DNA from: Verrucomicrobiia bacterium
Lineage (GTDB): Bacteria > Verrucomicrobiota > Verrucomicrobiia > Verrucomicrobiales > Akkermansiaceae
Direction: 5' to 3'
Assembly: GCA_947462875.1 (NCBI GenBank)
Contig: CANHQJ010000011.1
Span: 1-64,000, forward strand
Length of the DNA stretch: 64,000 nucleotides
Within the stretch, counting starts at the first letter, position 1; the number at the start of each line of letters is the position of its first letter. Below the pieces are notes generated by a model. That model did not search any database and was not told where the DNA came from. It saw only the letters and a program-made list of their open reading frames with translations. The position numbers and the translations under genes were made by a program. Positions 6,198-46,417 of the stretch are shown in pieces.

Positions 6198-9100
6198 ATG
6201 AAAAAAATTTCACACATCACAGCTTTCCGGCGATCACTGGCGGAATCGCGTGGTTTTACCCTGATCATCACGATCAGCCTGCTGGTTTTGCTGACGTTGG
6301 TAGCGATCGGGATTTTGTCGCTTTCCACTGTGACCTTGCGCAGTTCCGCCCAGGGCAATGCGATGTCGCTGGCCCGCAGCAATGCCAAGCTAGCGCTGAT
6401 GCTGGCGATTGCCGATTTGCAAAAAACCATGGGACCGGACAAAGCGATCTCCGCCACATCGGAAATCCTCGGTGCCAATCCCGCGAAGCCGAATTTGATG
6501 GGCGCTTGGGAATCCTGGGATGCGAATCCCTCCAGCACGACTCTGAACTATGCTTCGGAAAAAACGACACGTTTTCGCAGATGGCTCGTTTCGGATGCGG
6601 ATCCTCTGGCCACGTCCGCGCGCAATTATGCGACTGCCGGTGCGGTGAATAATCCGATCACTTTGGTCGGCGAGGGCTCGTTAGGCGCAGGTGCCGTGGA
6701 TGCGGATCGGGTGAGGGCGGGACTCGTGCCGATCTCCCGCAATGGCATTCGCGAAGGCCAATTCGCCTGGCATGTGGCGGACGAGTCCGTCAAAGCCCGC
6801 GTCAACAGCTATCGCGATCCTGCGCAAAACACGAGCCTGGCCCAGCGGCGCGCCCTGCTCACCGGGCATCGTCCGGAACCGCGCTTGGTCACATCCCGTG
6901 ATGGCACGATGCTCGATTACCTGCCCAGTGACCAAACCGCCCAGACCTTGACCACCGCGCGCGCGGCCGAGGGGAAATTGGTGGACTTGAGTCAGATCGA
7001 TTTGTTCAGCGCGAATCGTCAAACGGGGAAATTCCGCCATGTGGTCACTCCTTACTCGATGGGACTCTTGACCGATGTGAGAAACGGCGGGCTCAAGCAG
7101 GACCTGACCTCATTGATGGAAATGGCGACCATGCCCACGGAATACAACGGACGCAGGCTCTATCAATCGACCCACAACATCACCGGCGTGTCCGATCCGT
7201 TCTGGTCCACCTTGCAGTCGTATTACACCGTCTATCGGGACGTGAGTGCGCCCGATGCGGCGCCCACCTACTACCGCCCGCCGCTCGAAGCCGTCTCTCC
7301 GGGCACTCTAACGGCTCCCCGCCGTTTTTACCCCGCGCCGGTGATTGCCAAGGTGGAGATCCTTTTCACCTACGTGACGCGTGATTCCCACGCGAACTGG
7401 GTAGGCTCTCTGCTCAACGTCAGTCAAGAACATCGCCGTATGGGACATTTGCTCTACACGCCTCTGGTGACCCTGCACAACCCCTACAATATCAGCATTC
7501 AGTTTGATGAAATGCAGGTGGTCATTCGCAATGTCCCTGTGGCGTTCAATTTTTATGTCAACAACCAACCGCAAAGCGCCGGCCTGGTTCCCATCAACGA
7601 AATGTTTGTGAACAACGGCCAAAAAGGGGAAAAGTCTTTCGCTCTCAACATTGCGAACTGGACGAGTCCCACCTCCCGCGATTCCACACCGATGACTCTG
7701 AGGCCCGGGCAGACGGTGGTGTGTGGTCCGTTTCTATCCCCGAGTGCCAGCTTTTCCAACACGCAGGGAACACCCATTTTCGACTGGCAAAACAATCTCA
7801 CCGGTGTCGATCAGTTCGGTAACGTTACCAATCCCGTGCCCGGACGCCCCGGTTTCACCGGCAAAGCCGTCGGCTTCGATATCGACTGGATTACTCCGAC
7901 GCACGCCCCATACAACAACCCCGGACAAGCGACGGACAACAATATGGGCGTTCTCGGGCTGAGGGACAATGATCTTGTTCACATCGAGTATGCGGTGCGT
8001 CAACCGTCACGGGGCCAAAACGATCGCTTCGATGTGCAAGCGACCATCACCTCGCGCGGTCGGCAGATGGCCTATGGCGGATTGACTTTTGTTTACAATG
8101 ACGCATCCACGCTGGGCCGCTATTTCAATACGGTGCATCGCTTTCCCTTGTCCGGCGCGTTTCCGGCATCGGAGGCGTATCATTCGAATACCACACCGAT
8201 CTCGGCACAGGGCAACGCGAAATCGTTTGCCTTGTTCTCCGCCTATGCGAGAACCACCAATGGCGGCGTATTTGAAACCAACTCCCGCAACCAAACCGCC
8301 GGAGCCCTCAACGTGCAGCGCGATGGCCGCCTCGCGGGCAAGCCGATGATGCACCACAATCCCGCCCGTTCGGTGGTGTTGATGGATTACCGAACTGAAG
8401 TGCCCGGCATGCAATCGCACGAGCTCAATTTCGTGCCGCTGCCCGGTCACGTGGATGACGTGTTTGAAATCGATGCCGCCAACCGCAACAACGTGCTTGC
8501 CGGCAATACCACGCAACGCGGCATCAAGTCGGGTTCGTATTTGGAACTGCCGACGGGACCGATGCAGACCATCGCCGACTTCCGCCGTTCGAATGCCCTG
8601 ACATCGCCCTATCTGCCGAATTTTGTGCAGCCGGTAGCCAATTCCAGCGTTTCCCCCCTGATGAGCACCACTCGTGTGAGCGAGACGGGATTGACGAGTT
8701 ACGCCTTGCTGGATCACAGCGTGCTGGCCAACTACGCGCTCTACGATCGTTTCTATTTTTCCACCATCGCGCCGGTGGGTTCCAAGACGGCTACCAATGT
8801 GCTCAATGATTTCCTCGGCAATCGCGCCCCTTTGCTCACGCAGTCCTTCGCGCCATACGTTCCTTCAGGCAAAACGACGACCACGATCGCCACTGAGCTC
8901 CTCAATGCGGGCAGACCGGCAGCGAACGCCTACCGTCTGGCTGCCGAATATCAAATGGTCAAGGGGGCTTTCAACGTGAATTCCACCTCCGTGGCGGCGT
9001 GGAAAGCCATCCTGGGGTCGATGCGGAACACTCCCGTACCGGTGATGTGGTCGCGTTCGGGAACACTTGAGAACAGGAACACCGCCTATACTCCCGTAAC

Positions 9101-9770
9101 GCCGATGACGCTCACCAATGGCGGTGTTGCCACGGATGCGGCCGTGAACAGTGCCCAGACTGACAACGCGCGGACCAACCAATGGAACGGTTTTCGTGAT
9201 CTGACCGACGCACAACTGGATACGCTGGCGCAAAGAATCGTCGAGCAAGTGCGCTTGCGCGGTCCGTTTTTGTCGATGCATGAATTTGTCAACCGCCAGA
9301 TCGGCGCGAATTCGAATCTGACCCGCATGGGTGCCCTGCAAGCGGCGTTGGAAACCTCCCAGGTGAACAATGCTGTTTTCGCCACCCAGGTTCCCATTAC
9401 CGCCGCGAATGTCTCGGATGTCAATTTGTATCGCAACAGGACGGTGGAAGCGAACGTGGGGAATCCCGCGGAAGGTGCGCCGGGCTGGATCACCCAGGGC
9501 GATCTCATGCGTATCATCGAGCCGCTGGCCACCGTGCGCTCGGATACCTTTGTGATCCGTGTGTGCGGCGAGGCATTGAATGCGAATGGCGGCGTCAGCG
9601 CCCGTGCGTATGCGGAAGCCGTGGTGCAGCGCATGCCGGAATATGTCAATCCGATCGACAGACCCTCGGTCAATGTTTATACGGCCGCCAACGCATCTCC
9701 GCTGAATAAAGCTTTCGGCCGACGCCTCCAGGTGGTATCGTTCCGTTGGCTCTCGCAGCAAGAAGTGTGA
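6198..9770 (+). CDS. giant pseudopilin-like protein (Verru_Chthon cassette protein A type), copy 1
   Basis: 1190 residues. A prepilin-type leader (MKKISHITAFRRSLAESRG) precedes FTLIITISLLVLLTLVAIG, a class III signal with cleavage expected after Gly19. Position 5 of the mature protein is Ile rather than the Glu of major pilins, as in the tip pseudopilin GspK. A conserved helix (MLAIADLQKTMGPDKA) and a large beta-rich middle follow. The last third has FNVNSTSVAAW (925-935), RGPFLSMHEFVNR (1021-) and SDTFVIR...AEAVVQR (1115-), which parallel the NxNTA, F-S-x-x-E-F and S-x-x-F...VV-R elements of GspK. It is a close paralogue of the 37.6 kb gene. The ATG at 6198 was chosen for the leader. No pilus or type II secretion core genes are adjacent. 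Confidence 0.82.
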   Translation: MKKISHITAFRRSLAESRGFTLIITISLLVLLTLVAIGILSLSTVTLRSSAQGNAMSLARSNAKLALMLAIADLQKTMGPDKAISATSEILGANPAKPNLMGAWESWDANPSSTTLNYASEKTTRFRRWLVSDADPLATSARNYATAGAVNNPITLVGEGSLGAGAVDADRVRAGLVPISRNGIREGQFAWHVADESVKARVNSYRDPAQNTSLAQRRALLTGHRPEPRLVTSRDGTMLDYLPSDQTAQTLTTARAAEGKLVDLSQIDLFSANRQTGKFRHVVTPYSMGLLTDVRNGGLKQDLTSLMEMATMPTEYNGRRLYQSTHNITGVSDPFWSTLQSYYTVYRDVSAPDAAPTYYRPPLEAVSPGTLTAPRRFYPAPVIAKVEILFTYVTRDSHANWVGSLLNVSQEHRRMGHLLYTPLVTLHNPYNISIQFDEMQVVIRNVPVAFNFYVNNQPQSAGLVPINEMFVNNGQKGEKSFALNIANWTSPTSRDSTPMTLRPGQTVVCGPFLSPSASFSNTQGTPIFDWQNNLTGVDQFGNVTNPVPGRPGFTGKAVGFDIDWITPTHAPYNNPGQATDNNMGVLGLRDNDLVHIEYAVRQPSRGQNDRFDVQATITSRGRQMAYGGLTFVYNDASTLGRYFNTVHRFPLSGAFPASEAYHSNTTPISAQGNAKSFALFSAYARTTNGGVFETNSRNQTAGALNVQRDGRLAGKPMMHHNPARSVVLMDYRTEVPGMQSHELNFVPLPGHVDDVFEIDAANRNNVLAGNTTQRGIKSGSYLELPTGPMQTIADFRRSNALTSPYLPNFVQPVANSSVSPLMSTTRVSETGLTSYALLDHSVLANYALYDRFYFSTIAPVGSKTATNVLNDFLGNRAPLLTQSFAPYVPSGKTTTTIATELLNAGRPAANAYRLAAEYQMVKGAFNVNSTSVAAWKAILGSMRNTPVPVMWSRSGTLENRNTAYTPVTPMTLTNGGVATDAAVNSAQTDNARTNQWNGFRDLTDAQLDTLAQRIVEQVRLRGPFLSMHEFVNRQIGANSNLTRMGALQAALETSQVNNAVFATQVPITAANVSDVNLYRNRTVEANVGNPAEGAPGWITQGDLMRIIEPLATVRSDTFVIRVCGEALNANGGVSARAYAEAVVQRMPEYVNPIDRPSVNVYTAANASPLNKAFGRRLQVVSFRWLSQQEV

Positions 9771-9771
9771 C

Positions 9772-10488
9772 ATGATCGCTATGATTCGTTTGTTTTTTGT
9801 ATCTCTGTTGTTTCCATTCCTCGGAATGGCCCAGGAAGCGCCGGCTCCGCTGATGATCCGTGCGGCCTATCACAATCCCGTCAAACCCTTTGCGGAACTC
9901 TTCATCGCGGATCAAACCGGATTGGTGGTGCCGCTTCCCCTGGTGGCGGAGGGCCTGTCATCGCCGCAAGTGACCCTTCCGGTGAACGGCTCGCTGGTGC
10001 TTTACAAGGACAAGGTCGTGGACCCCAAAAATCCGCAGGCTTCGGTGGCGGCCAGCGCCAAAATTCCCGCCGATTGGAAAAAAGTGATCGTCTTGATTTT
10101 TCCCGCTGCCACAGCTGCGGAAAATGCCGGCTATCGCATCCTCCTGATCAACGATGCGCCGAACGCCTTTAAAAAAGGCGAGTCGCGCGTCATCAACCTG
10201 ACCCAGGCGGACACGGCCATGCAGGCCGGGGAACATAAGATCCCTCTGCCCTCCGGCAAGGTCTCGGAGCTGCCCGCGGTGAAAAAAGTCAACGAATACA
10301 ACATGGCGCAGACCAATTTCTATTACAAGGAGGGCGAGGAGTGGGTCGCGTTTACCGAACGACAGCTCCAGTATCTCGACACCACCAAGCGGATTTTCCT
10401 GATTTATCTGACTCCTGGCTCAACCCAACCGTTTGTGACGACCATCGTGGACAACACCCCCGAATTTATTCCGAAAGTGGAAAATTAG
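9772..10488 (+). CDS. secreted partner protein of the pseudopilin cassette, copy 1
   Basis: 238 residues with a Sec signal (IRLFFVSLLFPFLGMAQ, cleavage near MAQ|EAP), beginning one base after the pseudopilin stop, so surely co-transcribed. An internal ATG at 9781 is an equally good start. The mature part looks all-beta: alternating hydrophobic strands such as KKVIVLIFPA, YRILLIND and RIFLIYLTPG, with no catalytic motif or lipobox. The protein encoded at 41169-41828, behind the second giant pseudopilin, shares length, order and pattern (LIFFP, YLVNATKDQIGVKIG, GEEW, RAYLFAYTS). It is therefore a conserved second member of the cassette. Function is unknown; a periplasmic or surface partner of the pseudopilin is an inference. 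Its 3' end was copied during the duplication that follows. Confidence 0.75.
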   Translation: MIAMIRLFFVSLLFPFLGMAQEAPAPLMIRAAYHNPVKPFAELFIADQTGLVVPLPLVAEGLSSPQVTLPVNGSLVLYKDKVVDPKNPQASVAASAKIPADWKKVIVLIFPAATAAENAGYRILLINDAPNAFKKGESRVINLTQADTAMQAGEHKIPLPSGKVSELPAVKKVNEYNMAQTNFYYKEGEEWVAFTERQLQYLDTTKRIFLIYLTPGSTQPFVTTIVDNTPEFIPKVEN

Positions 10489-10613: not shown

Positions 10614-11267
10614 ATGAAACTCACCCATCGTGTTTTGCTGATTACCATCACTACGTTGCCATGGGCAGCCGCGCAGAGCGTATATGATCTGGGCAAGGAC
10701 GCGCCTGTGATGACGTCTCCGAAGGGTGTCTATGAGGCTGGCGATTTGATCGAAAAGGAAACAGCGCCTGCGACCGAGAGATCCAGCGCGGTCGCTACGG
10801 ATGGTGTGCATTTTTTTGAAGGTTTTGCCAGTGAGAGCAGCGAGGAAGCCCTGCTGAATCAGGTGGAAAAAGCCATCCTCAAGGATCCCGATCACGCTTG
10901 TGAGATTGTCAAAGAGGCGATCGTGGTTTCGCGTGCGAATGAAAAATTGGTGGCTAAGATTGTGGAAACCGCCTGTTTGGCAGCTCCGGAAAAAATGCGT
11001 ATCATCGCCCAGTGTGCGATTGCCGCTTATCCCGATGGATTGGCTGCCGTGCAGCAAGTGCTGGCAAAGCTGGATCCGGCAACGGGTGACGGCGACACAG
11101 TAGGGGTCAAATCCGGCAAGGAAACCGTCGAAAAAGGGGGACTCGAAAAAACCACGATTCCCACTCCTCTGAGAAAAGCCAGCCCGATCGATTATCTTCC
11201 TCCCATCCCGCTTCCTTATCCTCCCACGATCAACCCGCCGCCTGCGACGGACAATCGCGCGAGATAA
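10614..11267 (+). CDS. small secreted protein with helical core and Pro-rich tail, copy 1
   Basis: 217 residues, family not recognised. Signal peptide MKLTHRVLLITITTLPWAAAQ. Residues about 60-145 are predicted helical (EEALLNQVEKAILKDPDHA and following) with several Cys. Then come KSGKETVEKGGLEK and a Pro-rich tail PPIPLPYPPTINPPP ending in DNRAR. The tail could span or contact the cell wall, but there is no lipobox or sorting signal. It lies about 125 bases after the secreted-partner gene, in the same direction, so it may have its own promoter. The paralogue at 11959 retains the signal peptide, the KSGKETV segment, the Pro-rich stretch and the NRAR end but lacks the helical core. Confidence 0.65.
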   Translation: MKLTHRVLLITITTLPWAAAQSVYDLGKDAPVMTSPKGVYEAGDLIEKETAPATERSSAVATDGVHFFEGFASESSEEALLNQVEKAILKDPDHACEIVKEAIVVSRANEKLVAKIVETACLAAPEKMRIIAQCAIAAYPDGLAAVQQVLAKLDPATGDGDTVGVKSGKETVEKGGLEKTTIPTPLRKASPIDYLPPIPLPYPPTINPPPATDNRAR

Positions 11268-11348
11268 ATTGGTGTCTGCGATAGGTGAGAGGTCGCATTC
11301 GCCATGGATACGCCTAGAAAGCTGCCCGGACCTGTGACACAGTCGCGC

Positions 11349-11762
11349 CGATGAGGTTGCGCTTTTTACGGTCACATGTGTTTATCTGGCTCTTGGCGGG
11401 TTGTGGATTGTCAAGTATTTCCAAACCGCAGCACTCTCTCAGGATCAACACGCCCGAGGTGCGGCAGGGAATCGGACCAATCAACAGATTTCCCAAGGCT
11501 GGCTGAGCGAGTTCCATGACTCCAGCATGCGCACCACGGTGCTGGAGGCGCAGAAAAGCAACCAGAATCTGCAAGCCACGGCGGCACGGTTGCGCGTCGC
11601 GAAAGAACTGACCAATGAGGGGGTCGGAAACTTCCGAGCGCTCCGGCCTCTCGCTGGCGGCCTCGACGGCCAAGAGTTATTGCAATCTGATCAGCGCGCA
11701 GCAGCAGTTGGTTCTGGCGCAGACCACCTGGATTCGTTTGAAAAAAATCTTCGCATGATCAA
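11349..11762 (+). pseudogene. broken copy of the NodT/TolC-family lipoprotein gene
   Basis: Nearly identical over most of its length to the 5' part of the intact gene at 12452, from the same ATG and lipobox region (LLAGCGLS). A 7-base loss after the codons for Val-Arg-Gln shifts the frame. Two further deletions match short direct repeats in the intact copy: GCTGACCA at 12715/12775 (60 bp lost) and CTGGCGGC at 12821/12932 (111 bp lost). The sequence then stops after about residue 195 of the parent, where it joins a remnant of the secreted-partner gene. No functional barrel can be made. It is a relic of the tandem duplication. Confidence 0.88.
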
Positions 11763-11871
11763 ACTCACCCAGCGATCGACCCAGCAGTTTGTAACGACTA
11801 TTTTGGTCAGCACTCTAGCGCTCATCCCCAAGCAGAAAATTGACACACTTTCTATGACACAATCAATGTGA
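11763..11871 (+). pseudogene. 3' remnant of the secreted-partner gene
   Basis: In the frame ending at 11871 the DNA encodes LTQRSTQQFVTTI...LIPK, matching the last residues of the 238-residue partner (LTPGSTQPFVTTI...FIPK). Only the C-terminal tip was carried into unit 2 of the duplication, fused behind the truncated tolC copy. It has no start of its own. Confidence 0.75.
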
Positions 11872-11958
11872 TTTTTTTTTGACCTACGCATTGATGTAGT
11901 ATAGGTATCGTTTCCTATTGTTCAAGTTGCACATTTTACATTCTAAACCCAATTATCG

Positions 11959-12357
11959 ATGAGTTTTGTTCATGCTTTTTTGCTGATTACGATTTCACTA
12001 TTGCCACTGTCGTCCGCTTATCCCCCAGGCTTGATTGTAGCGCAGCAGTCAATTACAACGTTTGATGCGGTAAAAGGAGGAGGCGAAAAAGTCGGGGCGA
12101 AATCGGGCAAGGAAACTGTGGGAAAAGGTGGACTCGATAAAAATTCACAGGGCGGTTCAGTGGGAAAGCCTGGCCTGCCGCCGATTCCACCGCAGAATCC
12201 TCCATACATTAAACCGCCATCAGCGACGAAAAATTGTCCTAAAGACGATCGAGAAAAGGAAAAGGAAAAGGAAAAGGAAAAGGAAAAGGAAAAGGAAAAG
12301 GAAAAGGAAAAGGAAAAGGAAAAGGAGAGTCGAGAGAAAAACAATCGTGCGAGATAA
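11959..12357 (+). CDS. small secreted protein with (Glu-Lys)n repeat, copy 2
   Basis: 132 residues; paralogue of the gene at 10614. The signal peptide (MSFVHAFLLITISLLPLSSA) is joined directly to YPPGL, which aligns with YPDGL at about residue 138 of copy 1, so the helical core has been deleted. VGAKSGKETVGKGGLDK, a Pro-rich stretch (LPPIPPQNPPYIKPP) and the final NNRAR are retained. Between the Pro-rich stretch and NRAR, where copy 1 has only a few residues, there are twelve Glu-Lys pairs encoded by a hexanucleotide tract. The result is a highly charged, probably helical or disordered tail. The ORF is intact with a plausible signal, so expression is possible, but it may be a decaying copy. 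Function unknown. Confidence 0.55.
   Translation: MSFVHAFLLITISLLPLSSAYPPGLIVAQQSITTFDAVKGGGEKVGAKSGKETVGKGGLDKNSQGGSVGKPGLPPIPPQNPPYIKPPSATKNCPKDDREKEKEKEKEKEKEKEKEKEKEKEKESREKNNRAR
12253..12324 (+). repeat. GAAAAG hexanucleotide microsatellite, 12 perfect copies
   Basis: Twelve uninterrupted GAAAAG units inside the small secreted protein gene encode (Glu-Lys)12. The unit is six bases, so gain or loss of units changes tail length without a frameshift. The perfect identity suggests recent or ongoing slippage, because synonymous drift has not yet accumulated. Confidence 0.97.
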
Positions 12358-12451
12358 ATTCTCACCCTATCCCGGTGTGCAATGATGAGAGATCGGGGCC
12401 CTGGCGTGATACGCCTTGAAAGATGATCCTTCGTGTGAGACTCTTCTGCCG

Positions 12452-13825
12452 ATGAGGTTGCGTTTTTTACGGTCACATGTGTTTATCTGGCTCTTGGCGG
12501 GTTGTGGATTGTCAAGTATCTCCAAGCCGCAACACTCTCTCAAGATCAATACGCCCGAGGTGTGGCAGGTGGCGGGGAATCGGACCAATCAACAGATATC
12601 CCAAGGCTGGCTGAGCGAGTTCAATGATTCCCGCATGCGCACCACGGTGCTGGAGGCGCAGAAAAGCAACCAGAATCTGCAAGCCACGGCGGCACGGTTG
12701 CGCGTCGCGAAAGAGCTGACCATCCAGTCGCGTGCGGAGCTTTTGCCCACATTTCGAGTGGGAGCCAGCGGCGGGCTGACCAATGAGGGCTCTCAAACCT
12801 CCGAGCGCTCAGGGCTATCTCTGGCGGCTTCCTGGGAGCCTGATTTGTGGGGAAGGCTGCGCGATCTGAATCGGGCGGTGGCGGCGGATTTTGATGCGGC
12901 GGTGGCCGAATTCCGCAACGCGCGGTTGTCGCTGGCGGCCACGACGGCCAAGAGTTATTGCAATCTGATCAGCGCGCAGCAGCAGTTGGTTCTGGCGCAG
13001 ACCACTCTGGATTCGTTTGAAAAAAATCTTCGCATCATCGAGCGAAATTACAAGGCAGGGGTGCCGAATGTGCGGGCGCTTGATGTGCAACTCGGCCGCA
13101 CCAACGTCTCCGCCGCGCAGCGCACGGTCAAGGCACGCGAGCTGGATCGTGATGATGCCGCCCGCAGTCTGGAGGTTCTGCTGGGCCGCTATCCCTCCAC
13201 CACCCTGCAGCCCGGCAGGGACTTGCCGGTGCTTAACAGCCGCATCCCGGTGGGCCTTCCCGCAACGCTGATCGAGCGCCGTCCCGATCTGGAATCGGCC
13301 CGCGCCCGCATCATGGCCACGGCGCAAAGAGCGAGCGCCGCGCGCAAAAATCTCTTGCCCAATCTCTCGCTCACGGGAAGCGGGAGCTCGACACAGGGGA
13401 ATTTCGCCCGCTTGCTCAGCCCGACGGATCTGGTGACCAACATCACCTTGAATCTGACGCAGATTCTTTATGCTGGTGGCGCGCTGGAGTCCGAGGCGCG
13501 TCTGGCGGTGGAGCGCAACAAGGCGGCCATTCACGATTATGCCCAAGCGGCGCTGGAGGCCTTTCGCGAGGTGGAGTCCGCTCTCGGCGCGGAGTCTTCT
13601 CTCGCCGCACAGGAGGGATTCCTGGAGAAAGAAGTCGAGCAAGCGGCCCTGGCCGAGCGACAGGCGGAACGCGACTATTCCGAGGGCATCGAGGGCGTGG
13701 ACATTCTTTCCGTGCTGGAATCCCAGCGCCGTGCCAACAACGCGCGTTCCTCGCTGATCCGTTTGAAAAACGAGCGCTTGCAAAATCGCATCGATCTTCA
13801 CCTGGCGCTCGGTGGTTCCTTCTGA
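12452..13825 (+). CDS. NodT/TolC-family outer-membrane efflux lipoprotein
   Basis: 457 residues. N-terminal lipoprotein signal MRLRFLRSHVFIWLLAGC with the lipobox Cys at 18, then the TolC/NodT trimeric barrel-tunnel fold as two repeats of long helices. Family landmarks: ASWEPDLWGRLRDLNRAV, the RYKAGV-like RNYKAGVPNVRALDV, LIERRPDLESARARI, LPNLSLTGSGS and FREVESALGAE. It forms the outer-membrane exit duct of RND/ABC/MFS tripartite pumps or type I secretion. No adaptor or inner-membrane pump gene is adjacent, so its partner is elsewhere. The ATG at 12452 gives the lipobox at the right place; the frame extends upstream without support. The truncated copy at 11349 is its duplicate. Confidence 0.9.
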   Translation: MRLRFLRSHVFIWLLAGCGLSSISKPQHSLKINTPEVWQVAGNRTNQQISQGWLSEFNDSRMRTTVLEAQKSNQNLQATAARLRVAKELTIQSRAELLPTFRVGASGGLTNEGSQTSERSGLSLAASWEPDLWGRLRDLNRAVAADFDAAVAEFRNARLSLAATTAKSYCNLISAQQQLVLAQTTLDSFEKNLRIIERNYKAGVPNVRALDVQLGRTNVSAAQRTVKARELDRDDAARSLEVLLGRYPSTTLQPGRDLPVLNSRIPVGLPATLIERRPDLESARARIMATAQRASAARKNLLPNLSLTGSGSSTQGNFARLLSPTDLVTNITLNLTQILYAGGALESEARLAVERNKAAIHDYAQAALEAFREVESALGAESSLAAQEGFLEKEVEQAALAERQAERDYSEGIEGVDILSVLESQRRANNARSSLIRLKNERLQNRIDLHLALGGSF

Positions 13826-37590: not shown

Positions 37591-40500
37591 ATGAAATATT
37601 TCACCCCATGTTTTGATCACACAATCTTGCGACGTGATGCTGGTCGCGGGTGGGGAGACGGAAAAAGTCATGGACAGCGAAACTCAGGCTTCACTCTAGT
37701 GGTGACGATTTCGTTGCTGGTGTTGCTGACCTTGGTGGCTGTGGGATTTTTGAGTTTGTCCTCGCTGACCTTGCGACGATCCTCCCTCGAGTCGGCGAAT
37801 GCGGAAGCCCGTGCGAACGCGCGCATGGCCCTGATGCTTGCCTTGGGTGAGCTGCAAAAAAATCTCGGCAGGGATCAGGCGGTCACCGCGCCTGCCACTT
37901 TGCTCGATTCGGAACCGAACACGCCAGAGGCCAATGGCGTGCGGAATCCGCATTTGACGGGCGTCTGGACGTCACGGCGGGATGCGCTGGGCAGTCGTCC
38001 GAGCTATGACCGTGCCACGCCGTTTCGACGGTGGCTTGTGTCGGACAGCAATGCAAATGTTCTCACGCGTCTTGATTTCGCTCAGACTGGTTCCCTTACG
38101 GATCCGATCGTGATGGTGAAAACGCCGACAGGCCAAACGGGAAGCCTGAATCACGAAACGCAAGCCGGGCGGGTGAAAATGGGACGTGGCGGCTTTGCCT
38201 GGTGGGTGGCGGATGAAAATTGCAAAGCGCACATCGGCTTGCGCGACGATGTCAATCGCACGGACACGGCGACCATCGCCGAGCGTTTGGCATCCGCGGC
38301 GACACCGGGAGCGAATGGCGTTCGGGCGCTTCAGGGCTTCGAGGCATTTCCTTCCAACTCCACCACCAGTGACAAATTGATCACCCGGGCGGAGATTGAT
38401 CTCGCACAGTCGGCGGGAACCACCAGGTCGGCGGACCTTTTTCATGATATCACGCCTCACTCCGAGAGTGTTCTGGCGGATGTGAGCAATGGAGGGTTAC
38501 GGCAGGATCTGAGTCTCTATTTGGAAAGGCAGGACATTGATTGGCTGGAGGAGTGGGGCTGGCCCGGTGGTAAATCCGGTCAGCCGGCAGGCCCGCGTGG
38601 ACCGAACAATGACTACGCGCTGAGCAATCCGCAGCAATATGACATACTCTCGTGGAAATCCCTGCATCATTGGTATAACATGCATCGCAGACAGATCTCG
38701 GCATCCGGCGGATTCCCGCTGACCGCGATGAGAAACTATGTCGCTTATGATCCCGTCAGCAATCCCTTGTGGAATTCCGGTGTCATGCGAATCAGTCCTG
38801 TTCTTGTGAGGATGCAGATGATTGTTTCCTACGGTGTGCGCCAGACGGGAACTTCCGGCAATCAGGGAACCTATGACCTGTTGATGTACAGTTATCCCGT
38901 GCTGACCTTATGGAATCCGTACAGTGTGCCTCTGCAGGTGGATCAATGGAGCGTCTTTCTCCATACACTCCCGTTAGAGCACACGGTTTATCATAACGGA
39001 GTCAAAGTCAACCTGACGGGAGGCGGTTCGCGCAATGGCAACTACAACTGGGGTTGGCCGCATGGAAACATGGTCATGCGTTTCGGCGAGGGGACGCCGT
39101 CCGTGAGTCTGGCACCCGGCGAGTCAAAAATCCTCACCTACTCGACTTCACAGGCCGGTGGATTTAACGCCCATGACATGGTGGCGGAATTGCGACCGTG
39201 GATGCCCCCCGGACCCTCGAACCCGCAGGGTCAAATGGGGCAGGTGCGCAATCTCGGCAGCATTACCGGATCTGCGACTGACCGGATTGCCATTGAGACC
39301 GCTGGGTCGAGCTGGCATACGTCCGCCAATTCCTACAGCAATTTCCAGACGACCTTCTGCTTCCGTGTCGAATCGAAAGCCGTGCACCGCGGGCATCCGG
39401 ACGCATTCCGACGGCAAATGTTCACCAGTCAGGTGGCTTGGCGCTGCGAGTCGGATGCGGGCAACCCCATCCCCGATGTGATTTCGCGGAGCAATTTCCC
39501 CAGTATGACTCTGGGCCAGCTCACCAACTACGGTTCGCCCTTCCTCCACTTGGACATACGTTTGAAGACCCTTGACGAAGTCGGACTGCCTAACAAAACA
39601 TGGCTGCACAATATTCCGCACCATCCCTTTGTGGCTGCCACCTCCACGCAGAAGCATTCCAGCCAGGTGGATGCGGCGACCAATTTCTTCGCCCATCCCT
39701 ATACGCTTACGTTTGAGCAGATCAATGGCATCGAGGGCGTGATCCAGAATCGTCCCTTCTTTGGCCCGAGCAATCGGCCGGGCGGACGCGGCACCATCAT
39801 CGCGCAAGACATCCCGATGGCACCTTTGACGTCATTGGCGCAGTTGCAAAACCTGCCTCAGGTGCCGATTGAGGCGTTAAACTGGAGTGGGTATTATTTC
39901 CAGAACCAAGCGATCGGAAATTCCTACGCCTCCCCGGGATTGCCACCGCAGAGCATCAAAGAGCGTTCGTTTCCCTTTTATCTGGGCGAGTATTTCGCAT
40001 GGCAAGGAGGGGACATCGCCGGTAATTTTTACAATGACTGGACCTGGTTCAACAATTCCGAATATGAAATCGCCAGCGCTCCGGCTGCCGTTGTGGATCG
40101 TAGTTATGTGGCCAATCAGTTGCTTTTCGATACGTATTTTTTCTCATCGCTCGCCGCGCAACAGGGCGAAGTTTTTTCGCGCTATGGCAGGCAACGCACG
40201 GTGCGTGAGGTGGTTCAGCAATTTCTCGATGGCACAAGACCGGCACCGAATCCCGCCTACCGCCGGCATCTGGGCACGGCCACTGCGGCCAGTGTGATGA
40301 CCACTCTTGTGCCCAGTCGCGTGACACCCACCGCACACCAGCGGGTGGCGGCGAATATCATGGCGACCGTTGGGTTTAACGTGAATTCCACTTCCGTCGC
40401 GGCCTGGACGGCGATGCTGGCATCCTCACACTTGAAGCGTCCGGTGACCCTCGACAACCGCGGCACGCTGCGTGCACAACCGCAGGCACGGTATGTTGTT

Positions 40501-41172
40501 TCACGATTCAGCGCTCCCGTCGGCGGCTCGGCTGATGGCAAACCCGCTTCGGAAAACAACCGCTGGCTCGGGTATCGGGAGCTGACAGAACAGGAAATTC
40601 GCGAGCTGGCGGAGGCGATTGTGAAGCAAGTGAAAAAGCGCGGGCCATTCCGCTCGCTCGGCGAATTTGTGAATCGGCGGCTCACGACGGACCGCGAGCT
40701 GGCTCTCTATGGTGCCTTGCAGGCCGCGTTGGAAGACCCGGCCGTGAGCATCAATGCCGCGTATCGCAATCAATCCATCACCAAAGCCGATCTGAAAAAG
40801 GCGAAGTATGCCGCGAATTACAACTTCGAGGAAGCGGCCCTCGGCTCTCGCTACCAGGGAACACCTGCCTACATTTCCCAAGCGGACATTCTCACGCCCA
40901 TCGCGCCGATTCTCAATGCGCGCTCGGATAGTTTTGTCATCCGCAGCTATGGAGAGGCCCGCTCGGCTGACGGGCGCAGCATCACGGCCAGAGCCTGGTG
41001 CGAGGCGGTGGTGCAGCGTATGCCGGAATACACGGATGCTATCGACGCCGCGCACATCGCTCCCACGGCTTTGCGCTCCGCGATCAATCGCGTCTTTGGT
41101 CGTCGTTTTATCATCCGGTCATTCCGTTGGATTCCTACGACAGAAATCGAACCCATCATCGCCACTTCATGA
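37591..41172 (+). CDS. giant pseudopilin-like protein (Verru_Chthon cassette protein A type), copy 2
   Basis: 1193 residues, paralogue of the protein at 6198. A long leader (33 residues, ending RNSG) precedes FTLVVTISLLVLLTLVAVGFLSLSS; mature position 5 is Val, not Glu. MLALGELQKNLGRDQA follows as in copy 1. The middle is beta-rich and divergent. The C-terminal third is well conserved: FNVNSTSVAAWTAML (929-), RGPFRSLGEFVNRRL (1017-), SDSFVIRSYGEARS...EAVVQRMPEY (1112-) and FGRRFIIRSFRW at the end. Residue numbers of these motifs agree within four with copy 1. An earlier GTG at 37558 is less likely than the ATG at 37591. The stop overlaps the next gene's start by 4 bases (ATGA). No secretion core genes are adjacent. 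Confidence 0.82.
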   Translation: MKYFTPCFDHTILRRDAGRGWGDGKSHGQRNSGFTLVVTISLLVLLTLVAVGFLSLSSLTLRRSSLESANAEARANARMALMLALGELQKNLGRDQAVTAPATLLDSEPNTPEANGVRNPHLTGVWTSRRDALGSRPSYDRATPFRRWLVSDSNANVLTRLDFAQTGSLTDPIVMVKTPTGQTGSLNHETQAGRVKMGRGGFAWWVADENCKAHIGLRDDVNRTDTATIAERLASAATPGANGVRALQGFEAFPSNSTTSDKLITRAEIDLAQSAGTTRSADLFHDITPHSESVLADVSNGGLRQDLSLYLERQDIDWLEEWGWPGGKSGQPAGPRGPNNDYALSNPQQYDILSWKSLHHWYNMHRRQISASGGFPLTAMRNYVAYDPVSNPLWNSGVMRISPVLVRMQMIVSYGVRQTGTSGNQGTYDLLMYSYPVLTLWNPYSVPLQVDQWSVFLHTLPLEHTVYHNGVKVNLTGGGSRNGNYNWGWPHGNMVMRFGEGTPSVSLAPGESKILTYSTSQAGGFNAHDMVAELRPWMPPGPSNPQGQMGQVRNLGSITGSATDRIAIETAGSSWHTSANSYSNFQTTFCFRVESKAVHRGHPDAFRRQMFTSQVAWRCESDAGNPIPDVISRSNFPSMTLGQLTNYGSPFLHLDIRLKTLDEVGLPNKTWLHNIPHHPFVAATSTQKHSSQVDAATNFFAHPYTLTFEQINGIEGVIQNRPFFGPSNRPGGRGTIIAQDIPMAPLTSLAQLQNLPQVPIEALNWSGYYFQNQAIGNSYASPGLPPQSIKERSFPFYLGEYFAWQGGDIAGNFYNDWTWFNNSEYEIASAPAAVVDRSYVANQLLFDTYFFSSLAAQQGEVFSRYGRQRTVREVVQQFLDGTRPAPNPAYRRHLGTATAASVMTTLVPSRVTPTAHQRVAANIMATVGFNVNSTSVAAWTAMLASSHLKRPVTLDNRGTLRAQPQARYVVSRFSAPVGGSADGKPASENNRWLGYRELTEQEIRELAEAIVKQVKKRGPFRSLGEFVNRRLTTDRELALYGALQAALEDPAVSINAAYRNQSITKADLKKAKYAANYNFEEAALGSRYQGTPAYISQADILTPIAPILNARSDSFVIRSYGEARSADGRSITARAWCEAVVQRMPEYTDAIDAAHIAPTALRSAINRVFGRRFIIRSFRWIPTTEIEPIIATS

Positions 41173-41828
41173 TCCGCTCTCTCATTCACGCTGTTGTCGT
41201 CGCATCGACATTGTTCGCCCAGGAACCCGCCAAAGAATCGTCACAAGTGGAGTTCCGCGTGACTCGTTTCGATCCCGGTGATCGACCACCGCCGAAATTC
41301 AAAGCAGGCGCTGCAGGTGGGCAGGTGGATGTAGAGGTTCCTCTCACTTTTATCGAAGGTCCGCACAAAGTCACACTGCGTGAGAATCGGTTTTTGGATT
41401 TTTGGCGCGGTGCGGCAGAAAAACCCGAGATATCCGTGCCCATCGAGGCGAACGAACGCAAGGATTTGCTGCTCATTTTTTTCCCCACTGGCGAGACCTT
41501 CAAGGTCATCAAGGTGCTCACTCCAGTCACACAATTGCGTGGCACGGACCGCTATCTGGTCAATGCGACCAAGGACCAGATCGGGGTGAAAATCGGCAAC
41601 GGTGAGCCGGTGTTCATCGATTCGGGCAAGTCCGGTGTGTTGCGCGGACCGGGCGGGAATGACGTCGTCAGTTTGCCGGTGTTGATCAGCCAGAAACAGG
41701 GAGAGGAATGGAAACCGTCGAGCACGGAGAATTGGCACTTCGATCCCCGGGCGCGGGCGTATCTATTTGCTTACACTTCCGAGAGAACCGGGCACATGAC
41801 ATTTCACGTGATCACCGAGCGGCTGTGA
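41169..41828 (+). CDS. secreted partner protein of the pseudopilin cassette, copy 2
   Basis: 219 residues, translationally coupled to the pseudopilin through an ATGA overlap. Signal peptide IRSLIHAVVVASTLFAQEP. The mature all-beta pattern (VDVEVPLTFIEGPHKVTL, RKDLLLIFFPTGETFKVI, YLVNATKDQIGVKIG, GEEWKPSSTENWHFDPRARAYLFAYTSERTGHMTFHVI) follows the same order as the copy-1 partner at 9772, although identity is low. There is no lipobox and no recognisable enzyme motif. It is conserved in position and design, so it is likely to act with the pseudopilin at the cell envelope. A longer in-frame ORF starting at 40998 lies inside the pseudopilin gene and is not the real start. Confidence 0.72.
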   Translation: MIRSLIHAVVVASTLFAQEPAKESSQVEFRVTRFDPGDRPPPKFKAGAAGGQVDVEVPLTFIEGPHKVTLRENRFLDFWRGAAEKPEISVPIEANERKDLLLIFFPTGETFKVIKVLTPVTQLRGTDRYLVNATKDQIGVKIGNGEPVFIDSGKSGVLRGPGGNDVVSLPVLISQKQGEEWKPSSTENWHFDPRARAYLFAYTSERTGHMTFHVITERL

Positions 41829-41903: not shown

Positions 41904-44900
41904 ATGATTCGGACTCCGTTCATCGCCAGCACGATTTTCTGGATCGGTTGTTTTCTCCCTGCCGCCGCCAGGGGTGACTCCACGCTCTCGTACAATTTCG
42001 ATGTGCGCCCCATCCTCAGCGAAAAGTGTTTCGCCTGTCACGGATTTGATGCCAAAACACGCAAGGCGGATCTTCGCCTGGACACCTATGAGGGAGCCAC
42101 CGATCCGCAGCGCGAGGAAAAAGCCATCGTTCCCGGTAATGCCGCCGCCAGCGCCGTCATTCAGCGCATCATGAGCAAAGATCCCGATGAGGTCATGCCG
42201 CCACCCGATGCCGTGCACAGGATCCAGCCAAAGGAAGGGGAAATTCTCACCCGATGGATCAATGAGGGTGCGAAATACGAAGTTCACTGGGCCTTTTCAC
42301 CACCGAAAAAACAGCCGTTGCCTGCGGTGAAATCGTCCTCCTGGGTCAGAAATCCGATCGACGCCTTCATTGCGGAGCGTCATGACAGAGAGGGCTTGCA
42401 AGCTTCCCCTGAAGCGGACCGCGCCACTCTGCTGCGAAGGCTCAGTCTCGATCTAACAGGGTTGCCGCCCACGCCCCGGGAACTGCAAGAGTTTCTCGCG
42501 GATGAATCGCCGCAGGCTTATGAAAAAGCCGTGGATCGTTTGCTGGCGAGTCCGCATTTCGGCGAACGCATGGCACTTCCCTGGCTCGATGCCGCGCGCT
42601 ACGCCGATAGCAATGGCTTCCAGCAGGATGGCGACACGCATCAGTATGTCTGGCGCGATTGGGTCATCAAGGCGCTGAATGACAACATGCCTTTTGACCA
42701 GTTCACGATCGAACAAATCGCAGGTGATCTGCTGCCGAATGCCACGCTATCGCAAAAAGTCGCGACGGGCTTTCACCGCTGTCACATGCTCAATGGCGAG
42801 GGCGGCGCGATCGCCGAGGAACAGCGCAATATCATTTTGTTCGATCGTGTCGATGTCACCGCCACGAACTGGCTGGGACTGACTTTGGCGTGCGCGCAAT
42901 GCCACGACCACAAATACGACCCATTGAGTCAGAAGGATTACTATTCCATGATGGCATTTTTCAATCAGGTTCCCGAAAAGGGAGTGCCCGGCGGCAGCGG
43001 CCAGTACCGCATCGCCGATCCATGGATTCACGCGGGCAGCGAGGAACAAACGCGACAGTTGGCGGATCTGGCGAATCAAATCGAACTGACGCAGACTCTG
43101 GAGCGGGAGATACAAAAAAGTAAGGAGTTCATCGGGACAATCGAGCAAATGGAAAAATCCCTGATGCGTGGTGATAATGAAGTCTGGAAAACCGTCACGC
43201 CTGATTCGATGCAAGCGAGCCATGGAGTGGAGCTCCAACTACAACCGGATCAATCCATCTTTTCGGCCGGTGCCACTGCGGCGAAGGCCGACTACACCAT
43301 CGAGATTCCCGTGCCCGCCGAAGGATTGACTGGCCTGCGTTTTGACGTGATTCCTGACAAGCGTTTTCCCATGGGCGGATCCGGTCGTGCGGAAAGCGGC
43401 AATGCCGTGTTGAGCAAGCTAACGCTGGAATCCAACGGAAAGGCTCTGCCTATCTCCATGACCACCGCCAGCTACACCCAAGGCGGTTTTTCTCCCGATG
43501 CCATTCTGGATAACAACCCTCAGACGGGCTGGGCGTATGTGCCGAAAGTCAATGAGCCTCATTACCTCGCGGTCCAACTGAAAGACAAACTCTCCGCGGG
43601 AGGTCATTTGCGCATCGTTTTATCGTTCCAATCCAACCACATCGCTCACATGTTCGGTCGTTTCCGAATCTCGGTGAGTTCGGAAAATGATCCGGTTGCG
43701 AAAGCGCAGGTGCCTGCTGACGTTCGTGCCATTCTCAGCAAGTCTGCGGATCAACGCAGTCCCCAGGAGCGGGAAAAATTGTATCAGGCGATGCTGGCAC
43801 GTCATCCGGAAATCATGAAGATCAGAGCAAAGGTGTCCCAACTTGCAGCGGAGGCGGATGCTCTGAAAAACCAACTCCCGCGTGTGATGGTGATGTCCGA
43901 TGCTCAGCCGCGCAAAACGTTCATTTACGATCGAGGAAGTTATGAAACGCCGAAGGGGGAAGTCCGCAGTGACACCCCCGCCGTTCTGCCGCCCATGCCA
44001 GCGGATCAACCGAAAAATCGACTCGGCTTGGCGAAGTGGATCATGAGTGACAGCAATCCACTCACCGCCCGCGTGCAGATGAATCGTGTGTGGCAACTCT
44101 ACTTCGGCAAAGGGATCGTGAAGACCTCGGAGAATTTCGGCCTCGGTGGCGATCTTCCGACACATCCGGCGCTGCTCGACTGGCTCGCCGTGGAATTCCG
44201 CGAAAGCGGCTGGAATGTTAAACACATGCACCGTCTCATCGTGACCAGTGCGACCTATCGCCAGAGCTCGAAAGTCACTGCCGAAATGCTCGAACGCGAT
44301 CCGGAAAACAAGCTCTACGCGCGGGCGAGCCGATTCCGCATGTCATCCCTGATCCTGCGCGATTACGCCTTGCACACCAGCGGACTGCTACAGGGGAAAC
44401 TGTATGGCAAGCCGGTCTATCCCTATCAACCCGCCACCATCTGGGATGGTCTCAGCATCACGAAGGAGCGTGATTTCACCTATCCCTTGTCGCAGGGCCC
44501 GGATCTCTATCGGCGCAGCGTCTATACCTTTTGGCGTCGCACCGTGGCACCGGGCAATTTGTTTGACACCTCCGCGCGGCGCACTTGTGAAGTGAAAATG
44601 AATCTCACCAGCACGCCACTGCACGCGCTGACGACGATGAACGACCCCACCCGGGTGGAGGCGGCGCGGGTTCTCTCTGAACGGGTGATGCAGAAGGGCG
44701 GCGATGCGGAAGCTTGGCTGGACGAGGCGTTTTTACGCGTGTGTTTGCGTGATGCGGACGCCGTCGAGAAGGGCTTGCTGCGGAATGCCTGGAAGAAATC
44801 GCTGAAACATTTTCAAAACAATCCCATGGCCGCGCAAGAATTGTTAGGCATCGGTGCCGCGCCACGCGATGCGAAGCTCGATGCCCTGCAACACGCGGCA

Positions 44901-44957
44901 CTGGCCCATGTATGTCTCACCATCTATAATCTCGACGAAGCCCTCACACGCCAATGA
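41904..44957 (+). CDS. DUF1549/DUF1553 protein with planctomycete-type cytochrome c domain
   Basis: 1017 residues. Signal peptide (FIASTIFWIGCFLPAAARG), then a planctomycete-type cytochrome c domain, with NFDVRPILSEKCFACHGFD providing the CxxCH haem site. The DUF1549 domain follows (NPIDAFIAERHDREGL...DLTGLPPTPRELQEFL...ARYADSNGFQQD). A carbohydrate-binding-like insert lies at about 430-600, with a coiled segment around 395. The C-terminal DUF1553 domain carries RLGLAKWIMSDSNPLTARVQMNRVWQLYFGKGIV and the closing LLGIG. The family is abundant in Planctomycetes and Verrucomicrobia with sulfatases and is thought to take part in polysaccharide oxidation; this is not proven. Its stop overlaps the DUF1501 start by 4 bases. 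Confidence 0.93.
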   Translation: MIRTPFIASTIFWIGCFLPAAARGDSTLSYNFDVRPILSEKCFACHGFDAKTRKADLRLDTYEGATDPQREEKAIVPGNAAASAVIQRIMSKDPDEVMPPPDAVHRIQPKEGEILTRWINEGAKYEVHWAFSPPKKQPLPAVKSSSWVRNPIDAFIAERHDREGLQASPEADRATLLRRLSLDLTGLPPTPRELQEFLADESPQAYEKAVDRLLASPHFGERMALPWLDAARYADSNGFQQDGDTHQYVWRDWVIKALNDNMPFDQFTIEQIAGDLLPNATLSQKVATGFHRCHMLNGEGGAIAEEQRNIILFDRVDVTATNWLGLTLACAQCHDHKYDPLSQKDYYSMMAFFNQVPEKGVPGGSGQYRIADPWIHAGSEEQTRQLADLANQIELTQTLEREIQKSKEFIGTIEQMEKSLMRGDNEVWKTVTPDSMQASHGVELQLQPDQSIFSAGATAAKADYTIEIPVPAEGLTGLRFDVIPDKRFPMGGSGRAESGNAVLSKLTLESNGKALPISMTTASYTQGGFSPDAILDNNPQTGWAYVPKVNEPHYLAVQLKDKLSAGGHLRIVLSFQSNHIAHMFGRFRISVSSENDPVAKAQVPADVRAILSKSADQRSPQEREKLYQAMLARHPEIMKIRAKVSQLAAEADALKNQLPRVMVMSDAQPRKTFIYDRGSYETPKGEVRSDTPAVLPPMPADQPKNRLGLAKWIMSDSNPLTARVQMNRVWQLYFGKGIVKTSENFGLGGDLPTHPALLDWLAVEFRESGWNVKHMHRLIVTSATYRQSSKVTAEMLERDPENKLYARASRFRMSSLILRDYALHTSGLLQGKLYGKPVYPYQPATIWDGLSITKERDFTYPLSQGPDLYRRSVYTFWRRTVAPGNLFDTSARRTCEVKMNLTSTPLHALTTMNDPTRVEAARVLSERVMQKGGDAEAWLDEAFLRVCLRDADAVEKGLLRNAWKKSLKHFQNNPMAAQELLGIGAAPRDAKLDALQHAALAHVCLTIYNLDEALTRQ

Positions 44958-46417
44958 TCCTCGATCCCATCCAGCGCCAGCAACAGCTCATCACGCGACG
45001 TCAGTTTTTCGGCAAGTCGTCGACAGGCATCGGCACCGTGGCGCTTGCCTCTTTGCTCAACCGCGATCTGTTCGCCGCGCCAGCCGTGAACATGAATCCG
45101 TTAGAAGGGTTGCCGCATCTCGCGCCGAAGGCGAAAAATGTGATCCTGTTGTGGCAAGGCGGCGGCCCGTCGCAGATCGATCTGTTCCAGCACAAGCCCG
45201 GTTTGGAAAAGCTGCGCCTCACCGAACTGCCTGCTTCGGTGCGCGGAAACACACGCCTCTCCACGATGACGGCATCGCAGGGCAAATATCCCATCCTTTC
45301 CGCGCTTAAGCCTTTCCAATCCTACGGCAAATGCGGGCGCATGCTCTCAACCCTGATACCGCACATCGGCTCCATCGCCGATGACATTTGTTTCATCGAT
45401 TCGATGCACACCGAGGCCGTCAATCACGCGCCGGGCGTAACGTTTTTCCTCACTGGCAGCCAGGTTCCGGGGCGCCCGAGCCTGGGCGCGTGGGGAACCT
45501 ACGGTCTGGGCTGCTTGTCGCAGGATCTGCCCTCGTTCGTGGTCATGACGTCATCGGACAAGGATAAAACCTGCGGCCAGTTGTTTTTCGATTACTACTG
45601 GGGCAGCGGCTTTTTACCCTCGAAGTATCAGGGTGTGCGTTTCCGCGGCGACGGTGATCCCGTCTTGTATCTGAACAATCCCGCGGGTGTTGATCGATCC
45701 CTGCGCCGCAGCGCGTTGGATGATCTCGCGGCGATGAACCAGCATCACCTGGAACGATACGGTGATCCGGAAATTGACACGCGTATTTCGCAATACGAAA
45801 TGGCCTATCGCATGCAGATGAGTGTGCCGGAACTCACCGATTTATCGAAGGAAAGCCCGGAGACACTGGCGATGTATGGCCCGGATGTGCATCGCAATGG
45901 TTCCTTTGCCCGCCATTGTTTGTTGGCTAGAAAACTCGTGGAGCGCGGCACCCGTTTTGTGCAGTTGATGCACGCTGGATGGGATCAACACAAAAATCTT
46001 TCCTATCAACTGGAGCACCAGTGCCGGGATACGGATCAACCGGCCGCTGCTTTGGTGAAGGATTTGAAACAGCGGGGTTTGCTCGATGATACGATCGTGC
46101 TGTGGGTCAGTGAATTCGGACGCACGGTGTTTGTGCAGGGCGATATCAATAATCCGCGTGCTTATGGGCGCGATCACTTCGGCGTGGGCTTCACCATATG
46201 GGGCGCGGGTGGGGGATTCAAGCCGGGCCACAGCCATGGAGAAACCGATGACTTTGCCTATCACGTTACGAAAGATCCGGTGCACATTCATGACATGCAG
46301 GCGACCCTGCTGCACATGCTGGGCATCCATCATGAAAAACTCACGTTCCGCTACCAGGGCCGGGATTTCCGACTCACGGATGTGCATGGAAAAGTCGTAT
46401 CGGCAGTGGTGGCATAG
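44954..46417 (+). CDS. DUF1501 family protein, Tat-exported
   Basis: 487 residues, translationally coupled to the upstream DUF1553 gene (ATGA overlap). The N-terminus has a twin-arginine signal (TRRQFFGKSSTGIGTVALASL), implying folding, perhaps with a metal cofactor, before export. The DUF1501 core shows NVILLWQGGGPSQIDLFQHKPGL, CFIDSMHTEAVNHAPG and DTIVLWVSEFGRTVFVQG. This is an alkaline phosphatase/sulfatase-like fold with conserved Asp/His metal-ligand positions (DPVHIHDMQATLLHMLGI). The two genes are almost always paired in this phylum and presumably form an exported redox/hydrolytic complex. The exact substrate is unknown. Confidence 0.93.
   Translation: MILDPIQRQQQLITRRQFFGKSSTGIGTVALASLLNRDLFAAPAVNMNPLEGLPHLAPKAKNVILLWQGGGPSQIDLFQHKPGLEKLRLTELPASVRGNTRLSTMTASQGKYPILSALKPFQSYGKCGRMLSTLIPHIGSIADDICFIDSMHTEAVNHAPGVTFFLTGSQVPGRPSLGAWGTYGLGCLSQDLPSFVVMTSSDKDKTCGQLFFDYYWGSGFLPSKYQGVRFRGDGDPVLYLNNPAGVDRSLRRSALDDLAAMNQHHLERYGDPEIDTRISQYEMAYRMQMSVPELTDLSKESPETLAMYGPDVHRNGSFARHCLLARKLVERGTRFVQLMHAGWDQHKNLSYQLEHQCRDTDQPAAALVKDLKQRGLLDDTIVLWVSEFGRTVFVQGDINNPRAYGRDHFGVGFTIWGAGGGFKPGHSHGETDDFAYHVTKDPVHIHDMQATLLHMLGIHHEKLTFRYQGRDFRLTDVHGKVVSAVVA

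Follow-up and report, generated by a model that had tools for sequence, protein, structure and literature searches.

The subunits at the tip are believed to initiate the assembly of a filament and to determine what a type II secretion system (T2SS) or a pilus machine touches. The putative tip subunit described here, which we call A, is encoded at positions 6198-9770 of a 64,000-nucleotide stretch of an Akkermansiaceae genome (contig CANHQJ010000011.1; the whole stretch analysed is referred to as the window), directly upstream of the gene for a partner protein, B. A shares with the T2SS pseudopilin GspK (PDB 3ci0_K) an N-terminal helix, a pseudopilin core with an inserted domain, the order of its motifs and the absence of Glu at position +5 (Glu5), which we take to be typical of GspK. 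Unlike GspK, A has 1190 instead of about 320 residues, lies outside the T2SS operon, has a partner gene, belongs to a set of 12 paralogs and reaches no GspK profile cut-off. PMC6561018 presents ComZ of Thermus thermophilus as a GspK-like pilin with an inserted domain of ~380 residues and argues that it is a tip receptor; it resembles A in its large insertion and in having a partner encoded next door, but in ComZ the insertion is described as a beta-solenoid placed between the final two strands, and the partner PilA2 is itself a pilin, whereas the insertion of A is larger and its partner is not a pilin. The modular pilins of the Streptococcus sanguinis PilB type carry a functional module proposed to sit at the tip, and in its predicted model A also has a large non-pilin module on a pilin core; in PilB a short loop connects the module to the pilin part, whereas the extra mass of A lies inside the pilin fold, and the most extreme multi-domain modular pilin named in that source has 860 residues (PMC8179133). 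In the open-licence PMC text, no paper was found on a giant GspK minor pseudopilin.

This 3.95-Mb genome (39 contigs, 97.7% complete) contains 12 of these giants, with open frames of 1127-1297 residues, two in the window and ten elsewhere. From the leader, the fold match of the model, the number of paralogs, the A-B linkage, the co-divergence of the pairs and the machines present, all of them computed, we lean slightly towards the view that 11 of the 12 form two-gene A-B modules that would give type-4-filament machines alternative giant tips. We are more hesitant about a wider claim, namely that these modules represent a new class of type-4-filament tip module in Verrucomicrobiota, in which giant GspK-fold heads, each with an exported beta-sandwich partner and present in a dozen or more copies per genome, would act as exchangeable receptor heads on one machine. 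A GspK core enlarged to 1200 residues, in a dozen copies and with a tightly linked partner, would offer a natural test of the exchangeability and specificity of tips. The features of the two modules in the window, all on the + strand, are as follows.

6198..9770, +, giant predicted GspK-fold pseudopilin (A), 1190 residues (open frame, predicted model, structural match to 3ci0_K)
6198..6254, +, prepilin leader, residues 1-19, last residue Gly19 (sequence; model with a predicted local distance difference test score, pLDDT, <50 over residues 1-19)
6255..6431, +, long N-terminal helix (pilin alpha-1), residues 20-78, with Ile for Glu at +5 (sequence, model)
6747..6815, +, strand and motif around GQFAWHVADESVKARVN, residues about 184-206, pairing at low threshold with the GspK stretch just before the GspK helical insertion (profile alignment, model)
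6798..8912, +, enlarged insertion inside the GspK-like fold, residues about 201-905 (model, fold match)
7329..8096, +, Ig-like beta domain in the insertion, residues 378-633, with weak likeness to lamin tail domains (6ghd_B, Z 5.5, root-mean-square deviation (rmsd) 3.7, 97 aligned)
8913..9767, +, conserved C-terminal part, residues 906-1190, with the FNVNSTS helices, RGPFLSMHEFV and strands 1117-1127, 1133-1149 and 1175-1185 (alignments, model)
9772..10488, +, partner B, predicted exported protein of 238 residues with an all-beta model (first ATG one base past the A stop codon; conserved linkage)
37591..41172, +, second giant paralog (paralog search, alignment; start codon picked by the position of the leader)
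41169..41828, +, partner B of the second giant (ATGA overlap with the stop codon of that giant)

The frame of A runs unbroken from the ATG at 6198 over 1190 codons of the window sequence. Its leader reads ...AESRG19^F20TLIITISLLVLLTLVAIG, with Gly at -1, Phe at +1 and Ile at +5, as expected from the initial annotation, which had proposed a 1190-residue protein with a prepilin leader and no Glu5. Glu5 is likewise absent from the other 11 own paralogs and from all 67 relatives with a complete frame and leader (of 78 loci, 11 that were truncated or lacked a recognised leader were excluded). Two of the three C-terminal motifs claimed at first were found as described, FNVNSTS at residues 925-931 and SDTFVIR (1115-1121) followed by AVVQR (1141-1145); the third, given as F-S-x-x-E-F-V, was one residue short, the actual segment being F1024-L-S-M-H-E-F-V. 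The motif positions of A are mostly invariant or nearly so in a 68-row alignment, in which G187, W191, D195 and K199, in or just behind the strand modelled at 184-195, are also conserved.

An AlphaFold2 model of A built on the same 68 alignment rows (pLDDT 91.5, predicted template modelling score (pTM) 0.89) comprises the helix 20-78, then several beta regions and, up to about residue 1107, a mostly helical part, followed by the three closing strands. VIA-align ranked 3ci0_K, the GspK of the GspK-GspI-GspJ complex, first for this model (Z 11.0, rmsd 3.9, 246 of 280 residues aligned, 15% identity), with the second rank at Z 5.5. As the aligned range spans residues 48-1190 of the model, the GspK core appears to be split around the extra residues, whose boundaries were estimated from secondary structure and not from a residue-level structural alignment. 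Thus, the suspected likeness to GspK is borne out by the structure prediction, while its confinement to the C-terminal third is not, since the fold brackets the chain. Profile-profile comparison pointed weakly in the same direction, with P values of 0.0017-0.0054 for A versus GspK and of 0.22-0.65 versus reversed GspK decoys. The GspK alignment used was picked by script and held 29 rows, namely 27 of 30 fetched loci (3 dropped for a missing leader), the own GspK and that of E. coli K-12; in at least two of these rows (L158, L161) the trimming seems wrong. At low threshold, AWHVADE of A paired with KWQLRDA of GspK; RGPFLSMHEFV fell on a helical stretch of GspK and VRSDTFVIR on the strand that follows it. 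On its model, A is best called a minor pseudopilin of the GspK fold, enlarged ~3.6-fold by several hundred residues inserted within the fold, which agrees with the hugely enlarged GspK-like subunit initially proposed and leaves its tip position conditional. By the same model, A is a structural relative of GspK that does not pass as GspK by sequence score, size or operon.

Sequence searches returned little. No Pfam or NCBIfam family covered the whole of A by hmmscan at E up to 1; no GspK or TIGR02600 match over cut-off was found in A, in the C-terminal parts of the 12 paralogs or in 7 other full-length paralogs (NCBIfam, Pfam); and PF07963 (N_methyl), presumably linked to IPR012902, matched neither A nor these 7 paralogs at E up to 1. 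PF03934 weakly touched two giants of the own genome (15.6 bits, E 0.08; 13.3 bits, E 0.43), and the PDB searched with a sequence profile gave a ribosomal protein as sole match (E 1.1). The highest Foldseek rows for A, staphylococcal pore toxins and glycosidases, had probabilities <0.1 and were taken as noise. A reading of residues 378-633 as a lamin tail domain was rejected, with no Pfam LTD match in 34 segments (from 34 of the 68 aligned proteins) and a structural Z of just 5.5.

The initial annotation had overlooked both the other 11 giants, one of them in the window, and the gene directly downstream of A. The C-terminal parts of the own giants are 35-40% identical to that of A. A profile of this part matched 50 of 194 sampled Verrucomicrobiota genomes, including those of a genus (g2) called Akkermansia-like by inference; as mostly the best 10 candidates per genome were scored, numbers per genome are lower bounds. 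A scan of genome contigs confirmed at least 570 relatives. Titles naming Akkermansiaceae, Verrucomicrobiaceae, Haloferula, Luteolibacter or Roseibacillus are frequent among the 78 loci retained, and the closest relative among the matches listed was 78% identical to A in the C-terminal part. A precedent for pseudopilin expansion in the phylum is an Opitutales genome reported with 67 PulG-like homologs, by name another family (PMC13274419).

The linkage between giant and partner is conserved. Genes for B homologs, proteins of ~235 residues without a Pfam family whose export was judged from a signal peptide in sequence and model, lie directly after 11 of the 12 own giants (the exception being paralog C18) and after 70 of 76 related loci that include the 3' end. 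When own and related loci are pooled, a B model built from the 11 own partners finds a partner behind 84 of the 92 giants that leave room for one (83 of 92 with a 71-member model); giants with <600 residues in the locus or <900 bases behind them were excluded. Twelve of 96 B-like open reading frames (ORFs) are not beside a counted giant, and several of these look like second tandem copies or lie behind filtered-out giants; second, apparently tandem B-like genes were seen behind the modules at L126, L128, L129 and L080. Moreover, the own A-B pairs diverge together: the A and B distances of the 11 pairs correlate (Mantel r 0.64, p 0.0006), also after removal of one member of the closest pair (Mantel r 0.48, p 0.01).

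The model of B (pLDDT 92.8, pTM 0.86) is all-beta. Foldseek matched it to the extracellular domains of PepT1/PepT2 with E values down to 1.4e-6, and the structural comparison gave beta-sandwich likeness to the same domains (7pmy_A, Z 12.7, rmsd 4.9, 187 aligned; 5a9i_A, Z 12.2, rmsd 3.8, 177 aligned) and to the C-terminal domain of AlgF (6d10, Z 9.6, rmsd 2.3, 82 aligned). Unlike in structure, no sequence match to these domains was found in the 71 B members, for which Pfam returned scattered matches at E 0.07 or worse and no AlgF. Since many other beta-sandwiches follow in the comparison, as expected for a common fold, no function of B was read from these matches. Neither A nor B reached the cut-off of a named Pfam or NCBIfam family.

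Machinery that could build a filament is encoded elsewhere in the genome, and as stated initially no T2SS core gene adjoins A, at least among the ORFs and neighbours examined, which are not every ORF of the window. An operon on another contig, C6, contains GspG (TIGR01710, 116.1 bits, over cut-off), GspH-like (51 bits, below cut-off), weakly matching GspI-like and GspJ-like genes, GspK, genes without a profile name and a secretin. Its last-pseudopilin place in the order G-H-I-J-K is held not by A but by a GspK of 324 residues (L048:4563-5537; NF037980, 75.1 bits with a cut-off of 130; PF21687 over cut-off), and A lies neither in this operon nor in an H-I-J-K-like cassette. GspE and GspF genes are found on C2, and other secretins on C2 and C19. 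A prepilin peptidase is also present on C6, with CxxC...CxxC, FIDAEHQIIP and MGMGD, which we take to be its diagnostic motifs, and two A24 half-matches that are each below the Pfam cut-off. Of the two findings that would have refuted the initial annotation, the lack of a structural match to GspK and the lack of a prepilin peptidase in the genome, neither was obtained.

In the mechanism that we favour, A would be inserted in the inner membrane through its N-terminal helix and cleaved after Gly19 by the prepilin peptidase, and would then occupy the first position, the tip, of a type-4 filament that the T2SS or the type IV pilus machine of the cell assembles. The tip is suggested because Glu5 is missing and the bulk of A seems too great for the shaft, and by analogy with GspK and ComZ it is the place where such a head would fit. 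In the periplasm, B may bind the head of its own A as a dedicated partner, and the filament would push this head to or through the secretin. In this way, every A-B pair could equip one common machine with a receptor head of its own, be it for a surface, a polymer or a secretion substrate. Exchangeable tips would be the simplest account of a genome with 12 heads, 11 of which have a B-like gene, and one GspG over cut-off.

Several results weigh against this reading. Foldseek placed 3ci0_K fifth for A (E 0.07), amid unrelated noise, and VIA-align compared only the candidates of Foldseek; both structures are predictions, and the hhalign probability of A versus GspK was just 6-16%. A did not reach the cut-offs of NF037980, PF03934 or PF21687 (Pfam, NCBIfam), and the C-terminal parts of the 12 paralogs gave no NCBIfam GspK match. 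Eight of the 92 giants have no B, among them five of the nearer relatives of A (L074, L075, L086, L093, L094) and the own paralog C18. Among the own partners, those of the giants C17a and C6 show only faint similarity to the others (best blastp E 0.004), and that of C17a was lost with the 71-member model. In ten regions from nine other genomes (two genomes being of the same family), hand-chosen among genomes known to carry giants, 8 of 13 giants have B, and in the Akkermansia-like genome G021 B is absent from 3 of 3. Furthermore, both the place of A in a filament and its contact with B are steps that we infer.

Rather unlikely, in our estimate, is that A is specifically an alternative GspK of the T2SS, its head being a substrate receptor through which each module adds a class of exoprotein and B an adaptor handing over the cargo. 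Such a role would suit a genome that has a T2SS operon with its own GspK, in a family in which 15 of 20 genomes contain GspG over cut-off, and some giants adjoin, by eye, large exported or sulfatase-like proteins that could be cargo (L074, L075, L093, L193, L196). However, giants occur in 15 of 17 g2 genomes of the phylum scan, yet 13 of 14 g2 genomes gave no GspK match at E 0.001, and G005, the sole g2 genome tested for it, had no GspG over cut-off. Therefore, a type IV pilus machine may serve the giants there. A sulfatase neighbourhood was dropped as an idea, as a motif count without a control yielded no more than 10 sulfatase-like ORFs across the 1.24 Mb of giant loci.

The persistence of giants in g2 genomes without detected GspK would instead suit a tip adhesin of a type IV pilus, comparable to CofB, PilX/PilY1 or S. 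sanguinis PilB, with B as a periplasmic or secreted accessory of the adhesin; we consider this similarly doubtful. C2 groups a second secretin with further GspE/GspF-like genes, the Akkermansia ancestor is predicted to have had genes for type IV pilus assembly (PMC10540074), and modular pilins are described as widespread (PMC8179133). Nevertheless, the closest fold to A, among the candidates of Foldseek compared, is GspK and not a minor pilin of type IV pili, and Pfam recognised no adhesin domain.

Alternatively, A might use the pilin leader merely as a membrane anchor and never enter a filament, A and B forming an inner-membrane or periplasmic complex of other function. The own modules do stand apart from the assembly genes found, and filament membership of A is the conditional step of the favoured mechanism, but the model retains most of the GspK fold, and the 67 complete relatives examined preserve the leader, the long helix and the lack of Glu5. 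As an anchor would not need these features, we judge this improbable.

The initial annotation had assigned A to a family known only as a 'cassette' protein, and this did not hold. The profile of Verru_Chthon cassette protein A (TIGR02600) is of similar length to A (1296 positions), and in a genome search it picked up the prepilin leaders of all 12 giants; two of them (C1, C6) show a second matching stretch (profile positions 223-281 for C6). Yet A scored 18.2 bits, on the leader alone, against a cut-off of 332.3, with no match by hmmscan, and the best own paralog reached 29.3 bits, the paralogs matching little past the leader. The cassette partners B, C and D, which presumably define the Verru_Chthon cassette, are not beside A, its neighbours being bioF and the partner B described above. 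With a profile match that is almost wholly leader, no further pseudopilin genes found beside A and a partner that is not a pilin, it is very improbable that A is an ordinary Verru_Chthon cassette protein A. In the open-licence PMC text, no paper was found on a Verru_Chthon or chthon cassette protein.

A cassette-like A on C14 was considered as a bridge to the cassette family and set aside; because it had matches in only 2 of 96 genomes, one being the own genome, no profile was built from it. C14 carries four overlapping pseudopilin-like genes in the order H-I-J-K (L047:8161-12687), whose members match Verru_Chthon cassette models below cut-off only. The last encodes a GspK-like protein of 854 residues (NF037980, E 9.1e-7, below cut-off), a K of intermediate enlargement in the own genome.

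Among the neighbourhoods of giants, inspected by eye and without a background test, those without B at L074 and L075 are followed by large exported, beta-rich-looking proteins and that at L093 by a sulfatase-like protein, and the own paralog C2 (L040), which has B, sits between two very large ORFs. The three giants of G021 (L189, L190) include two divergent neighbours; the C-terminal ends of all three score the same, which suggests recent copies.

In the window, genes for a PSCyt1/DUF1549/DUF1553 protein (41904-44957) and then for a DUF1501 protein (44954-46417) lie behind the second module (37591-41828). At 11307-13005, the outer-membrane efflux gene (12416-13825) has been partially duplicated and the duplicate has decayed, with repeat blocks at 11307, 11463 and 11651 that are 87-99% identical to parts of that gene. 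Finally, the small exported proteins encoded at 10614 and 11959 have a KSGKETV.KGGL.K stretch in common.

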